From a virus, in the IMG/VR virus record IMGVR_UViG_3300033153_003888, positions 1 through 41,346 of that record: DNA of 41,346 nt; one strand, given 5' to 3'. Under the pieces are notes generated by a model. The model made no database searches. It had not been told where the DNA came from and saw only the letters and a program-made list of their open reading frames with translations. This document shows, piece by piece, positions 6,829 through 18,090 of the stretch. The position numbers were made by a program, and so were the translations under genes. Positions within the stretch are counted from its first letter, which is position 1. Each line of letters begins with the position of its first letter.

Positions 6829-7334
6829 ACATTAAAGTAGAGCTAGGGGTGCAATCCGCACTAAGCGATGAACTGAAAAGGTATGTGGAAGCTAGAGTCA
6901 AAGGTATGCGGTTGCGCAACAGTATGTCTTCGAGGGTCGAAAGGCACATAGTGGCCACACACCTAGAACCTCGCGACAAATTTACAACGCCGGAAATGAT
7001 CCACGGGATCGTAGTGACGTGGCTACGCTTAAAAGGGTTAGAAGGACATCGGACCCATTTTTTAATCGAAAGAGATATAGAAGATACCCAAGGGGTGCTC
7101 ATAAAATGGCGAGCAATGGCCAAGGCCCCACTAAAAGAGGATGGGGAAATACCGCTAGTGGAGTCCGCCCGTCAGGCGATCCTCCGATGCTACGAACAAC
7201 GGGAGGAAATCCTCGAAGCCTTCATCGCCAAGTACGGGTGCGGACCGGAAGGGGTGATGCAGATCGAACGAAAACAACCAAACGGGACTACCACGTGGCA
7301 AGTGGTGCGGAACAACAAAGGGGAGAGCGAATAA
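6825..7334 (+). CDS. Hypothetical protein, 169 aa
   Basis: The start at 6825 follows AAAGGAGCGAGCAAA, the same leader seen at 6241, and overlaps the upstream stop as ATGA. The protein is mostly helical, with a basic N-terminal half (YVEARVKGMRLRNSMSSRVER) and a C-terminal YGCGPEGVMQIERK segment. No catalytic motif or membrane segment was seen and I do not recognise the family. The stop TAA overlaps the next ATG, so it is coupled to the exonuclease gene. Confidence 0.7.
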   Translation: MNIKVELGVQSALSDELKRYVEARVKGMRLRNSMSSRVERHIVATHLEPRDKFTTPEMIHGIVVTWLRLKGLEGHRTHFLIERDIEDTQGVLIKWRAMAKAPLKEDGEIPLVESARQAILRCYEQREEILEAFIAKYGCGPEGVMQIERKQPNGTTTWQVVRNNKGESE

Positions 7335-7861
7335 TGAATCACGTAATGATTGACTTAGAAACGATTGGGAACGACTACGACGGAATCTTCACCACTATCG
7401 GAGCTTGCGTGTTTGACCCCCAGACAGGAGAGCTCGGCAGGACTTTCTACGAGAGTGTGAATTGGGAATCTGCTGTTGCCGCAGGGAGAACTATCACGCC
7501 GGACACCCTTAAAGGGTGGATGACCCAGAGTGAGGCCGCCCAGAAGGAGATCACTAAAGATGGTAGGAAACTAGAGACAGTGTTGCGGGAGTTCGCTAGT
7601 TGGTTGCCAGGTGAGGCGGTCGTCTGGGGCAATGGCCCGACCTTCGACATCGGGAAACTCGAAACAGCTTACGGCTACTACAACATCCCGTGGAAGTTTT
7701 ATAATATCAGGTGCGTGCGGACCATCCGCGACCTAGCATGGGACTGGGTAGATCGGGACGACATCCCGTTCGTCGGAGAAAAGCACAATGCCTTGGCTGA
7801 TGCGATCCACCAAGCCACGTACGTATCTAAGATGTGGCAGGCACTCCGGGGGAAGGGATAA
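7334..7861 (+). CDS. DEDDh 3'-5' exonuclease, Rv2179c/DUF5051-like
   Basis: 175 residues from the ATG at 7334. ExoI is MIDLETIGN (D7, E9), ExoII lies in WGNGPTFDIGKL, and ExoIII is HNALADA with H151 and D156, so the four acidic residues and the His of the DEDDh group are all present. Layout and length match small phage 3'-5' exonucleases of the Rv2179c-like family, which trim RNA or DNA ends. Its place in the replication operon fits RNA turnover or proofreading and recombination. The protein lacks other domains. Frames extending upstream are read-through of the neighbouring gene. Confidence 0.85.
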   Translation: MNHVMIDLETIGNDYDGIFTTIGACVFDPQTGELGRTFYESVNWESAVAAGRTITPDTLKGWMTQSEAAQKEITKDGRKLETVLREFASWLPGEAVVWGNGPTFDIGKLETAYGYYNIPWKFYNIRCVRTIRDLAWDWVDRDDIPFVGEKHNALADAIHQATYVSKMWQALRGKG

Positions 7862-9191: not shown

Positions 9192-9668
9192 ATGAAAAAA
9201 GAGATTGTAACTTGTATGACTCCAGAGGGGCGGGAGCTTCTCGCCACACCCAGTAAACGGATTGACCATGATATGGACGCTGAGCATATGCACCGGATCA
9301 TCCGTGACCTAGTGGATACGGCTGACGCGGAGAAGAACCCCCGAGCACTGGGCTTGGCAGCAAACCAGATCGCCACCTGTAAAGAGGATTGCGTTCGGAT
9401 CTTTGTAATGCGCTGGGGAGCCCACTGGATTCCGATCGTCAACCCGCTTATCGGGGAGGAGAGTAAGAAACGGGCGACGCTGTATGAGCGGTGTCTCTCT
9501 CGCCCAGGTCGCCCACCGATCAAGACTTCCCGAGCTAAGAGCCTCAGACTGCGGTACCTGGCGCCAACGGAAGAAGGCCGGTGTGAGTTGATCGAGCGCA
9601 AGTTCAAGAGCCGCGACGCGATAGTGATTCAGCATGAGATGGACCACCTCGCCGGGATACTCGTTTAA
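9192..9668 (+). CDS. def: Peptide deformylase, phage type
   Basis: 158 residues with all three deformylase motifs: GLAANQI at 54-60, ERCLS containing the metal ligand C101 (usually EGCLS, so Gly is Arg here), and QHEMDHL with ligands H148 and H152 and catalytic E149. It removes the formyl group from nascent N-terminal Met. It ends a few residues after the HEMDH helix and so lacks the longer C-terminal helix of bacterial enzymes, as do other phage deformylases. The start is the ATG after GGAAAGTTAAAA. It is followed at once by the SNF2 helicase. Together with the tmRNA downstream it suggests the phage supplies its own translation quality-control functions. Confidence 0.92.
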   Translation: MKKEIVTCMTPEGRELLATPSKRIDHDMDAEHMHRIIRDLVDTADAEKNPRALGLAANQIATCKEDCVRIFVMRWGAHWIPIVNPLIGEESKKRATLYERCLSRPGRPPIKTSRAKSLRLRYLAPTEEGRCELIERKFKSRDAIVIQHEMDHLAGILV

Positions 9669-9669
9669 G

Positions 9670-11049
9670 GTGGCCGAGCCGTATCCGTTCCAAGAGGAGG
9701 GCGTTACGTCCCTCCTGAAAACCCTCAATCGGCAGAAGGGCGTGCTCCTTGCAGATGAACCCGGTGTGGGCAAGTCTGCGCAGGCGTGCCTAATCTCGAA
9801 TGCACTGGCCCCCGCTTCGGTGTGCGTGGTTTGCCCCGCTTCGTTGCGGGTGAACTGGCAACGGGAGTTTGCGATGTGGGACATCTGGGGTGTAAAGCCT
9901 GCACTGGTTACGACTAAGACGAGTCCCGTCCCGCAAGACATCGTAATCAACTATGATATTATCCACCGCTCGGAAGAGGTGTTGAACCGTCGCTTCGATC
10001 TGCTGATCTGCGATGAGAGCCACTTTGCGAAGAACCGCACCTCGAAGCGCTCGAAAGCCTTGAAGGTCTTGGCCGATAAAGCCGACACCGTGCTTTTGAT
10101 GACCGGCACGCCGGTAGAGAACCGCCCGGTTGAACTCTTCTGGCAGATGGTACTTATGGGCTGGAAAAGCCCCTCAGATTATATGGAGTTCGCCAAGCGC
10201 CATTGCGGATATCACCGGCGACAGATATTTCTCAAGGGCGGGCGCAGGCGCGAGATCGTTGACGTCAGTGGAGCCACGCGCCTCCCGGAACTCCGGCAGT
10301 ATCTACTTGACAAAGGGATGGTGCGACGCACGAAAGCGGAAGTGATGCCGGAACTTCCCCCTAAGAGTTTCCAGATCGTAGAGTTGCCCCGCCGTAAACA
10401 ATGGCGATCCTCCCTGTTGAACGACGCCCTACCGGGTGAAAAAGTAGAGAAGAGCCAGGTGGCCTACTTTTCATCACTGGCAAAAATAGCGGCGCAGACC
10501 GGGGACAAGCGCAGACTGGTGGACTCACTGGCGGAAGCCCGACGGCTCGATGGAGAGGCCAAAGTAGAGCAGGCACTTGAGTTTATAAAGGAGCAGCTAG
10601 AGGGGGGTGTAGAAAAGATCATCGTATTCGCGCACCACAAAGCCGTGTTCGAGGCGCTCCATGTAGGGTTGAAGCAATACGGCGTAGTGGAGATTTGCGG
10701 ATCGACCGGCGTACTGAAACGCCAAAACTCTGTCGATCAGTTCCAGACCAACCCGAAGATGCGGGTGTTCCTCGGGCAAATCAAGGCAGCGGGGGTCGGC
10801 ATCACTTTGACGGCGGCGCATCATGTCGTCTTTGTAGAGCTGGATTGGGTACCGGGGCTAATGGGGCAGGCGGCGGACCGCGCTCACCGCAATGGCCAGA
10901 GAAACAACGTAACGGTGCAGTATTTAGTGTTTGAAGACTCAACCGACGGCATAGTGGCACGGTCTTTAATACAAAAGCAAAAGACCCTAAACGCTTTACT
11001 GGACGGGGATTACACCGACGCACCCATAGATCCGTTTGAACTTTTCTAA
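9670..11049 (+). CDS. SNF2-family DEAD/H helicase
   Basis: 459 residues if the GTG at 9670, two bases after the deformylase stop, is the start; an ATG at 9634 would add 12 residues. The RecA-like domain 1 has ADEPGVGKS (Walker A), VCPASLRVNW (motif Ia), CDESH (motif II) and LLMTGTP (motif III). Domain 2 has KIIVFAHH, a GVGITLTAAHHVVFVELDW segment and QAADRAHRNGQ (motifs V and VI). This is the compact SNF2 type common in phage replication modules next to DUF2800 and DUF2815 genes, thought to act in DNA remodelling or recombination. It ends IDPFELF. Confidence 0.9.
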   Translation: MAEPYPFQEEGVTSLLKTLNRQKGVLLADEPGVGKSAQACLISNALAPASVCVVCPASLRVNWQREFAMWDIWGVKPALVTTKTSPVPQDIVINYDIIHRSEEVLNRRFDLLICDESHFAKNRTSKRSKALKVLADKADTVLLMTGTPVENRPVELFWQMVLMGWKSPSDYMEFAKRHCGYHRRQIFLKGGRRREIVDVSGATRLPELRQYLLDKGMVRRTKAEVMPELPPKSFQIVELPRRKQWRSSLLNDALPGEKVEKSQVAYFSSLAKIAAQTGDKRRLVDSLAEARRLDGEAKVEQALEFIKEQLEGGVEKIIVFAHHKAVFEALHVGLKQYGVVEICGSTGVLKRQNSVDQFQTNPKMRVFLGQIKAAGVGITLTAAHHVVFVELDWVPGLMGQAADRAHRNGQRNNVTVQYLVFEDSTDGIVARSLIQKQKTLNALLDGDYTDAPIDPFELF

Positions 11050-11086: not shown

Positions 11087-11091
11087 CAAAC

Positions 11092-11522
11092 ACAGTTAAT
11101 TAAACGAAGCGAGCAATGAGAAGAAACAAAACAAATGATTTAATGGGCGCGACTGGTTTCGACAGTTGGATTGAAGCTCAAGATGCAAGCCGAGGTTGGT
11201 CTGTTGGCCTCGTTAAAAGCAGACTAAATGGTAACTGGAAAAGTTATTGCATTCCCCGCGCCAATGGCGCAAGCGGCTTAGTTCGTGGGATAGGAAAGCG
11301 GCGATGCCTAATAGCCGTTAGTACGACTCTTTATCAGGCACAGTGCTCATTGTATCGGCCTAGAGCCTATAACATGACCGATTGGTGGAAGGCGCGGCTC
11401 CGGTCGCACCCCAAAGTTGCCGGTTCACAACCGGATATGCTTGTAGAGTCTTGAAGGGAAGTTCAGTTGGACGGGGGTTCGATTCCCCCCGCGTCCACCA
11501 TTTTTAATACAGTTAATTAAAC
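11092..11522. repeat. 14-bp direct repeats flanking the tmRNA
   Basis: ACAGTTAATTAAAC occurs exactly at 11092-11105 and 11509-11522, bracketing the tmRNA (the coordinates span both copies and the insert). Each copy is followed by a leader: CGAAGCGAGCAATG at the left (like the operon's usual AAAGGAGCGAGCA leader but missing GG) and a normal AAAAGGAGCAGAC leader at the right. This suggests that a gene leader was duplicated when the tmRNA was acquired. Confidence 0.65.
11145..11500 (+). ncRNA. ssrA: tmRNA (transfer-messenger RNA), phage-encoded
   Basis: The 5' end reads GGGCGCGACTGGTTTCGACAG, the tmRNA acceptor and D-loop signature. GGGCGCG (11145-11151) pairs with CGCGTCC (11490-11496) as a 7-bp acceptor stem. 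The T-arm is GGGGG-TTCGATT-CCCCC (11473-11489), and CCA is encoded at 11498-11500. The length, 356 nt, is normal for one-piece tmRNA. The open tag frame begins around GTA at 11231 and ends at TAG 11279-11281, predicting VTGKVIAFPAPMAQAA; the terminal AA matches the degradation signal of known tags. The exact resume codon is inferred. A stable GCGCC-AAT-GGCGC hairpin lies inside the tag. It frees stalled ribosomes and tags their products for proteolysis. The 112-codon frame across it is not a gene. Confidence 0.93.
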
Positions 11523-11546
11523 CAAACAAACAAAAGGAGCAGACAG

Positions 11547-12314
11547 ATGGAAATAAAAAGCATCACAACTACGATCCTCGACGAAGGATACGTCATTCAG
11601 ACAAACGGCGCGGAAGGGCCAGTGGCTACTATTGCTTGTACCGAAGCAGGAGATGTGCTGAATCGCTTGGCGGCAATCCTGAACGTGGACAATGCAGTAT
11701 CTACGCCGGAAACTGAAACACGGGTTGAAGTGGAAGGCGGCGAAAACGAAGACCCGCTGGTTCCTGTAACTTCGGAAAACCGTGAAGAAGCATTGGCTTT
11801 CCTCGCTGAAAACGGCGTAGAAGTTAAACCTCGCACCAAGAACAACACCTTGACGAAGATGATCGCAGCGGTACGGGCTAAGCCAGAAGGTGGTGAAAGC
11901 TCCGAACCTACCGGAGAAGAAAAGACTGCTGGAGAAGAGGGTACAGTTAAAGTTGAGCTGAAAGAACCTGCGGGAACGGTTTGCCCCATGTGCCAAGGCA
12001 CTAAGGTACTTTGCCCGTCTTCGGAAACTCCGATTGACTGTTCTTTCTGCGATGGCACTGGCGTGTCGGAGGATGAGCTGTCCAGCCAAGCCCTCCGCAA
12101 CATGGGCAACCGTGTACTGAACACCGCTGAGAAAGGGAGCGTCCAGCACAAGGCGTTGCTGTCCGCCCTTCAGTCTGGCATCAAAGACGCAGGCTATGCT
12201 TCCCTCGGGGACGTAACCGACGACGGTGTTGCCAAGGTCTGTGAATCCGTACTCTCTTCGCTCGACAAGGCCTTCAGCCCTGCGAAAGAAGAAAAGGACG
12301 ACGAAGAGTGGTAG
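11547..12314 (+). CDS. Zinc-finger protein with acidic C-terminal tail
   Basis: 255 residues; the ATG follows AAAAGGAGCAGACAG. The N-terminal 100 residues are acidic and unrecognised. Then comes a Glu-rich linker, and a DnaJ-like cysteine-rich module: CPMCQGTKVLCP followed by DCSFCDGTG. A helical region follows, and the tail ends KDDEEW. The tail resembles the acidic, aromatic-ended peptide of ssDNA-binding proteins, and the neighbouring DUF2815-like protein ends in the same EEW. A role in recombination or replication complex assembly, perhaps as a loader or adaptor, is inferred from context. Its stop overlaps the next gene's GTG start. Confidence 0.7.
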   Translation: MEIKSITTTILDEGYVIQTNGAEGPVATIACTEAGDVLNRLAAILNVDNAVSTPETETRVEVEGGENEDPLVPVTSENREEALAFLAENGVEVKPRTKNNTLTKMIAAVRAKPEGGESSEPTGEEKTAGEEGTVKVELKEPAGTVCPMCQGTKVLCPSSETPIDCSFCDGTGVSEDELSSQALRNMGNRVLNTAEKGSVQHKALLSALQSGIKDAGYASLGDVTDDGVAKVCESVLSSLDKAFSPAKEEKDDEEW

Positions 12315-17450: not shown

Positions 17451-17626
17451 TGGCTGATTGGGCAGATAAAGCAAGTGACCAAGCGAATCGCCAGGGCCAC
17501 AGGAAAGTCGACGCATTGTTGGGCATGAACATCGAGCGGGAATATGCGCTGATTAAGGCGGGAACGAGCAAGCGCCACCCCCGTATTCAAGACCTAATCG
17601 TTCAACGCCGGGAGCTGGGGCAATGA
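17450..17626 (+). CDS. Small hypothetical protein, 58 aa
   Basis: An ATG at 17450 overlaps the preceding TAA and follows GGAGGTAAGTTA. The 58-codon frame begins MADWADKASDQANRQGHRK and ends with TGA overlapping the next ATG. Overlap on both sides and a strong ribosome-binding site support it. The composition is helical and basic; no family is recognised. Confidence 0.65.
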   Translation: MADWADKASDQANRQGHRKVDALLGMNIEREYALIKAGTSKRHPRIQDLIVQRRELGQ

Positions 17627-18090
17627 GCACCGATCCAAAGAAAGCCAACGGGGACTTGAAGTGTCCGATGCACCTACTACCGACCGTGGCCCTGCGGGCT
17701 ATGGCGAGAGCCTTGTATCATGGGGCGGTAACAAAGGGGTACGGTATTTACAACTGGCGGGCAGGCGATGGGATCAAGACGTCCACCTACACGGCGGCTC
17801 TTCAGAGGCACACGCTCCAGTTAATGGATGGCGAGGACGTCGATGCGGAGAGCGGTGAGTCCCACTTAGCTCACATTATGGCGACTTGCGCTATCCTGAT
17901 GGATGCTGAATCAGCCGGGAAATTGATAGACGATCGGGTTAAGGCTCCGAAGATTGCGGGGCGGCCAGCTATCTGGGAACCTCAATGCGGATTTGTGGTT
18001 TACAGCGCGTGTAAGAATGCAGAACACCCGGTTGTCTGCGGGTCATGCGTTGAACGTCTTGAAGACTGGACAAACTTTTCGAGGAGGTGA
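17623..18090 (+). CDS. DUF5664-like nucleotide pyrophosphohydrolase
   Basis: 155 residues. The pattern GYGIYNWRAGDGIKTSTY, LQRHTLQLMDGEDVDAESG and SHLAHIMATCAIL matches the DUF5664 family (several members annotated as dATP/dGTP diphosphohydrolase), related in fold to MazG. The acidic and His residues of GED-D-ESG-xxH-xxH would bind metal and the triphosphate. The extra C-terminal region with CGSC is not typical of the core domain. Probable role: altering the deoxynucleotide pool during phage replication. No PurZ or other base-modification enzyme appears in the window. The ATG overlaps the preceding stop. Confidence 0.82.
   Translation: MSTDPKKANGDLKCPMHLLPTVALRAMARALYHGAVTKGYGIYNWRAGDGIKTSTYTAALQRHTLQLMDGEDVDAESGESHLAHIMATCAILMDAESAGKLIDDRVKAPKIAGRPAIWEPQCGFVVYSACKNAEHPVVCGSCVERLEDWTNFSRR

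Follow-up and report, generated by a model that had tools for sequence, protein, structure and literature searches.

A phage-borne one-piece tmRNA gene, probably functional, with an aberrant tag in the replication cluster of a small contractile-tailed phage

tmRNA, an RNA of bacteria, releases ribosomes that have become stuck and tags the incomplete proteins they were making. That phages may carry such a gene is already known: a 2021 survey found tmRNA in 402 of 18,146 phage genomes, 133 unique (PMC9004378), the mycobacteriophage Bxz1 is among the phages listed with one (PMC4131195), and huge phages carry tmRNA together with SmpB (PMC7162821). The gene described here is a further member of this kind, and the statement in the earlier note on this DNA that tmRNA genes are rare in phages is thus true only in relative terms. 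One-piece tmRNAs like the present one occur in Mycobacterium phages Tonenili (Bxz1 group) and Rey, Bacillus phage G, Streptomyces phage Amabiko and Myxococcus phage Mx1, most of their tags differing from those of bacteria (ATDTDATVTDAEIEAFFAEEAAALV, AAFVAADYAVGA, AKLNITNNELQVA, ANSNVASAYALAA and VNTNVFGSQMMAAA); Mx1 in addition has most of the first pseudoknot found here (87% over 46 nt). These phages have genomes of 84-498 kb, in several of which the tmRNA lies among tRNA genes, whereas the window (the whole stretch of DNA that was analysed, 41,346 nt) is 41 kb long and yielded no tRNA gene to either ARAGORN or Rfam. Closer in size is a 48.6-kb IMG/VR contig, L170, whose one-piece tmRNA (143.8 bits) has an aberrant tag (ANNVTNVDFDQRLAHAA) and a similar pseudoknot 1; its proteins share only a weak nucleotide-hydrolase match with those of the window and it represents a different phage. 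The tmRNA of the OM43 phage Melnitz, like that of the window, directly precedes another phage gene, with which it shares an operon (PMC9004378), but is two-piece and permuted and is accompanied by a glutamine riboswitch, whereas the gene of the window is in one piece. On the bacterial side, Pseudomonadota-type one-piece tmRNAs resemble it in their full-length architecture, G3.U70 acceptor and CCA end, and some of them in the UAACU resume context; it departs from them in its tag (GKVIAFPAPMAQAA rather than the ANDENYALAA types), in its fourth acceptor pair (C-G rather than G-C) and in being phage-borne.

The gene, a one-piece ssrA of 356 nt, occupies positions 11145-11500 on the plus strand of phage record IMGVR_UViG_3300033153_003888, which is classed as linear in IMG/VR and is incomplete, since its right end interrupts the portal gene. 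The covariance model RF00023, whose gathering score is 47, covers exactly these positions from end to end (model positions 1-374 of 374; 134.1 bits, E 1.9e-52), and no other Rfam family reaches its gathering score in the window. Bacterial tmRNAs scored identically span 100-211 bits, and 134.1 bits is therefore ordinary for a genuine gene. The model of the permuted two-piece form, RF04321, was unmatched, the order being 5' tRNA-like domain, tag, 3' tRNA-like domain. The extent proposed in the earlier note for a complete phage tmRNA is hence reproduced to the nucleotide, and the acceptor stem, D-loop signature, T-arm and encoded CCA that it had read were all recovered in the sequence and the RF00023 alignment (Table 1). 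All seven acceptor positions are paired, the alanine identity pair G3.U70 is present at 11147/11494, and the D-loop motif, T-arm and CCA complete the tRNA-like domain. We take the D-arm analogue CUGGUUUCGAC to be the region contacting SmpB. ARAGORN, which the earlier note had proposed as a check alongside the covariance model, left the gene uncalled in the window. Its calls reflect a program heuristic and no biological defining feature of tmRNA, and it also fails on L111 and L114, two further tmRNAs of viruses that RF00023 recognises. Surveys based on ARAGORN thus undercount phage tmRNAs.

Table 1. Features of the tmRNA gene and its immediate surroundings (positions in the window)
Feature	Position	Strand	Basis
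Peptide deformylase; all three metal-site motifs (GLAANQ, ERCLS, HEMDH)	9192-9668	+	PF01327, 70.3 bits; translation
DNA helicase, immediately 5' of the tmRNA	9634-11049	+	phrog_62, E 1.3e-90
Direct repeat, 28 nt, left copy	11089-11116	+	82% identical to right copy
Acceptor stem, 5' strand GGGCGCG	11145-11151	+	sequence and RF00023 structure line
D-arm analogue CUGGUUUCGAC, conserved tmRNA motif	11153-11163	+	sequence and RF00023 match
Pseudoknot 1: CGAGG 11191-11195 / CCUCG 11208-11212 and GUCUGUU 11199-11205 / AGCAGAC 11218-11224	11191-11224	+	shuffles
UAACU directly 5' of the resume codon	11232-11236	+	alignment to bacterial tmRNAs
Tag frame GKVIAFPAPMAQAA-stop (UAG), resume codon GGA	11237-11281	+	alignment
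Candidate pseudoknot 2: AGCGGC/GCCGUU and UGCCU/AGGCA	11297-11340	+	prediction
Candidate pseudoknot 3: GCUC/GAGC and AUCGG/CCGAU	11345-11382	+	prediction
Candidate pseudoknot 4: GGUG/CACC and UCCGGU/ACCGGA	11384-11435	+	prediction, ambiguous
T-arm GGGGG-UUCGAUU-CCCCC	11473-11489	+	sequence and RF00023 match
Acceptor stem, 3' strand CGCGUCC	11490-11496	+	sequence and RF00023 match
Encoded ACCA, CCA end included	11497-11500	+	sequence and RF00023 match
Direct repeat, 28 nt, right copy, in leader of next gene	11506-11533	+	82% identical to left copy
Gene of unknown function, immediately 3' of the tmRNA	11547-12314	+	no PHROG, Pfam or NCBIfam match

The resume codon was placed at GGA 11237-11239 by alignment with bacterial tmRNAs, for instance L151, in which GUAACU-GCA-AAC-GAC corresponds to GUAACU-GGA-AAA-GUU in the window. 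The equivalents of E. coli U85 and A86 are kept in this alignment (UAACU-GGA, 11232-11239), the A at 11233 corresponding to A86, a residue essential to tmRNA function in E. coli (PMC2481249). Of the internal frame previously reported at 11231-11281, the stop codon and the Ala-Ala ending stand; its start had been set two codons too far upstream, and the leading VT of the tag given there (VTGKV...) is to be removed, leaving GKVIAFPAPMAQAA, two residues shorter. With the alanine carried by the tmRNA itself, the full tag is (A)GKVIAFPAPMAQAA. It ends in Q-A-A, a hydrophobic C-terminus followed by a stop codon, and the Ala-Ala ending is unlikely to have arisen by chance, as 1.3% of the shuffled frames with 8 or more codons share it. 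Its dissimilarity to ANDENYALAA, remarked upon at the outset, is borne out: the tags of the bacterial tmRNAs compared are mostly of the ANDxxYALAA, GENNYALAA and similar types, whereas those of phages are far more varied (ATDTDATVTDAEIEAFFAEEAAALV, AAFVAADYAVGA, AKLNITNNELQVA, VNTNVFGSQMMAAA, DDNVEMLPGFMLGASYNPQALAA, ANNVTNVDFDQRLAHAA). Judged by its sequence, the predicted tag is aberrant for a bacterium, not for a phage. Taken together, the tags of phages differ from those of bacteria, which makes the purpose of tagging during infection a testable question.

Pseudoknot 1 precedes the tag, as is required of a tmRNA, and its stability was equalled by none of 500 dinucleotide shuffles, so that the pseudoknots whose absence was to have spoken against the gene are represented by at least this one. 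Over four related tmRNAs one of its pairs has changed on both sides, a number of sequences too small for significance (87 of 500 shuffles did as well). Three further H-type pseudoknots can be drawn 3' of the tag, the last with an alternative second stem (CCGGU/GCCGG). Their best set was reached by 1 of 150 shuffles, and by 8 of 200 over a slightly shorter region, in a test that has little power, since two genuine bacterial tmRNAs do not pass it (55 of 200 and 175 of 200); pseudoknots 2-4, which come from prediction, are weakly supported, plausible candidates. The folding energy of the whole RNA is unremarkable (z -1.5) and uninformative, the fold model excluding pseudoknots. The sequence of pseudoknot 1 also occurs in two IMG/VR tmRNAs, namely that of L170 mentioned above (1501-1891, one-piece) and a permuted one on a 33-kb contig (L168, 6171-6392).

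On the plus strand of the window, the tmRNA follows genes for an exoribonuclease-like protein, an HNH endonuclease, a peptide deformylase and a helicase, and precedes the 11547-12314 gene, a DUF2800 exonuclease, an ssDNA-binding protein and a family A polymerase. The minus strand carries the structural genes (sheath, baseplate J, hub, capsid, portal), which identify a contractile-tailed phage. A small, 41-kb phage of this type in which tRNA genes were not detected thereby joins those bringing their own ribosome-rescue RNA; the small genome, the lack of detected tRNA genes and the deformylase neighbour make the case somewhat unusual. The deformylase, 1.5 kb upstream of the tmRNA, is at most ~33% identical to those of Vibrio phages and cyanophages. 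The exoribonuclease-like gene of the same cluster (7019-7861, plus strand) matches the Rv2179c-like 3'-5' exoribonuclease domain (PF16473, 169.5 bits), and its product is a possible source of degraded mRNA. Further downstream, the protein encoded at 17623-18090 (plus strand) matches PF18909, the N-terminal domain of dATP/dGTP diphosphohydrolase; in phages, this family may have a connection with altered DNA bases.

We read the locus at 11145-11500 as a functional phage-borne one-piece tmRNA acting by the mechanism outlined below, with a probability of roughly 0.83. The sequence itself, the model match, the acceptor, D and T elements, pseudoknot 1, the tag frame and the gene context form its basis, and the nearby deformylase, as another translation-related phage gene, counts in support. 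From this basis we infer how the RNA would be expressed, charged and used with SmpB, as well as its timing, its benefit and the fate of the tagged proteins. The tmRNA would be co-transcribed with the replication genes and then processed to its encoded CCA end (promoter and terminator consensus sequences were not found near the gene). Host alanyl-tRNA synthetase would charge it with alanine through G3.U70, and it would be bound by host SmpB, which would be needed because no SmpB was found in the record. Entering ribosomes that have stalled on host or phage mRNA which is broken or lacks a stop codon, it would let translation resume at GGA 11237, add (A)GKVIAFPAPMAQAA and terminate at UAG; with the tag starting at this codon, rescued products would end in AGKVIAFPAPMAQAA. 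The main benefit to the phage would probably be the recycling of ribosomes during mRNA degradation. The earlier note had placed this action late in infection, which the position of the gene makes less likely: lying in the replication module, it would be expected to be expressed early or in the middle of infection.

Other readings of the locus have to account for the same elements. A charged RNA that binds SmpB or ribosomes yet tags poorly would act as a decoy or inhibitor and lower host trans-translation. Such a role has been proposed for a minimal tmRNA-like RNA in mycobacteriophage DS6A, which consists of the tRNA-like domain only and resembles a molecule that inhibits tmRNA (PMC4131195). 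Whilst the aberrant tag of the window would fit such a role, the mRNA-like part, resume context, stop codon and pseudoknot 1 have all been kept, none of which a pure decoy needs, and we regard this reading as improbable. An open reading frame of 112 amino acids (11116-11454, plus strand) remains open through most of the tmRNA and could be taken for a protein-coding gene; given that the RF00023 match at E 1.9e-52 accounts for the stretch and that the window holds 112 open reading frames of at least 80 amino acids, which in most cases overlap real genes by chance, we rejected it, and a coding locus here is barely conceivable.

The gene could also be a host ssrA captured recently through imprecise excision or recombination, not under selection or already in decay, and functionless in the phage. 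ssrA is a common integration site (PMC9004378, PMC3029335), direct repeats flank the gene and a syntenic relative is devoid of it. Against this, no tyrosine integrase (PF00589) was found in the record, the gene lies inside the replication cluster rather than at an end, and its seven acceptor pairs and tag frame are intact despite an identity to bacterial tmRNAs of at most ~78% even in the tRNA-like ends. That these elements have stayed intact at such a distance from every bacterial tmRNA found suggests that selection has kept the gene for a long time, and we hold a decaying copy to be no less improbable than a decoy. An att remnant, with the tmRNA as integration site, is likewise disfavoured, given that the search for tyrosine integrases (PF00589) was negative and given the location between replication genes, away from any element end.

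The simplest reading of the surroundings of the tmRNA is its lateral gain in this phage lineage. The match between the flanking repeats was equalled in 6 of 5000 shuffles of the flanks, and their 14-base core, ACAGTTAATTAAAC, has no further copy in the window even when up to 3 mismatches are allowed. In the only syntenic relative found (L002; helicase 34% and exonuclease 31% identical), the helicase gene shares four bases with the one that follows it, and no tmRNA is present. Together with the location in the replication cluster, these features are consistent with a lateral insertion expressed along with early genes. Where a viral record has a related helicase or exonuclease, a tmRNA above cut-off is seldom present: only 2 of 50 (194 and 120 kb) contained one, and none of 8 named phages of 42-60 kb with a related protease or polymerase did. 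The tRNA-like ends are nearest those of Pseudomonadota tmRNAs, the best being only about 72-78% identical: searched by blastn, they matched 67 of 398 Pseudomonadota genomes and 8 of 247 genomes in the phylum of a Kapaibacterium genome, some of the latter matches being tRNA-Ala genes. A Bacteroidota origin, considered on account of the Gly resume codon and of tags beginning GE or GD (L135, L136, L153), is disfavoured because the ends fit Pseudomonadota better. Megablast of positions 1-25000 against the phage collection gave no match, a single-query search of IMG/VR yielded no helicase relative, and the best helicase identity found was 39%. The DNA pattern of the resume region matched only viral contigs devoid of tmRNA, and a two-part pattern, searched in bacterial genomes, produced nothing beyond chance matches.

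As to the fate of tagged proteins, the AANDENY residues of bacterial tags are the part read by SspB, and the N-terminal half of GKVIAFPAPMAQAA is without them. ClpX contacts the final two alanines and the carboxylate (Ala-Ala-COO-), and a change of the antepenultimate Leu brings only a modest rise in KM (PMC7652416). Since the tag ends in Q-A-A and keeps the terminal Ala-Ala, recognition by ClpXP, as judged from the tag sequence, remains the default, perhaps weakened, and a tagged product would probably still be a substrate of the Clp family, if a weaker one. The suggestion made previously that tagged products go to a different protease or are more stable is accordingly best treated as speculation, rerouting to another protease being possible. 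That the phage has replaced the tag with one that changes the fate of its products, through loss of an SspB-type N-terminal motif and a weakened ClpX contact, seems to us unlikely; were it true, ribosomes would be rescued while the truncated products are spared or their degradation slowed or redirected.

The comparison also brought out tmRNAs, one-piece or permuted, that are unannotated in GenBank: in Myxococcus phage Mx1 (L110, 1462-1839), Phage Phass-1 (L111, 1094-1532), Caulobacter phage CcrRogue (L112, 1469-1787) and a Bohxovirus (L129, 669-858). In Tunturiibacter phage Tunturi_4 (L123, 325-1086), a release-factor-like gene with an RF-1 domain lies directly 5' of a permuted tmRNA, placing two candidates for ribosome rescue side by side.
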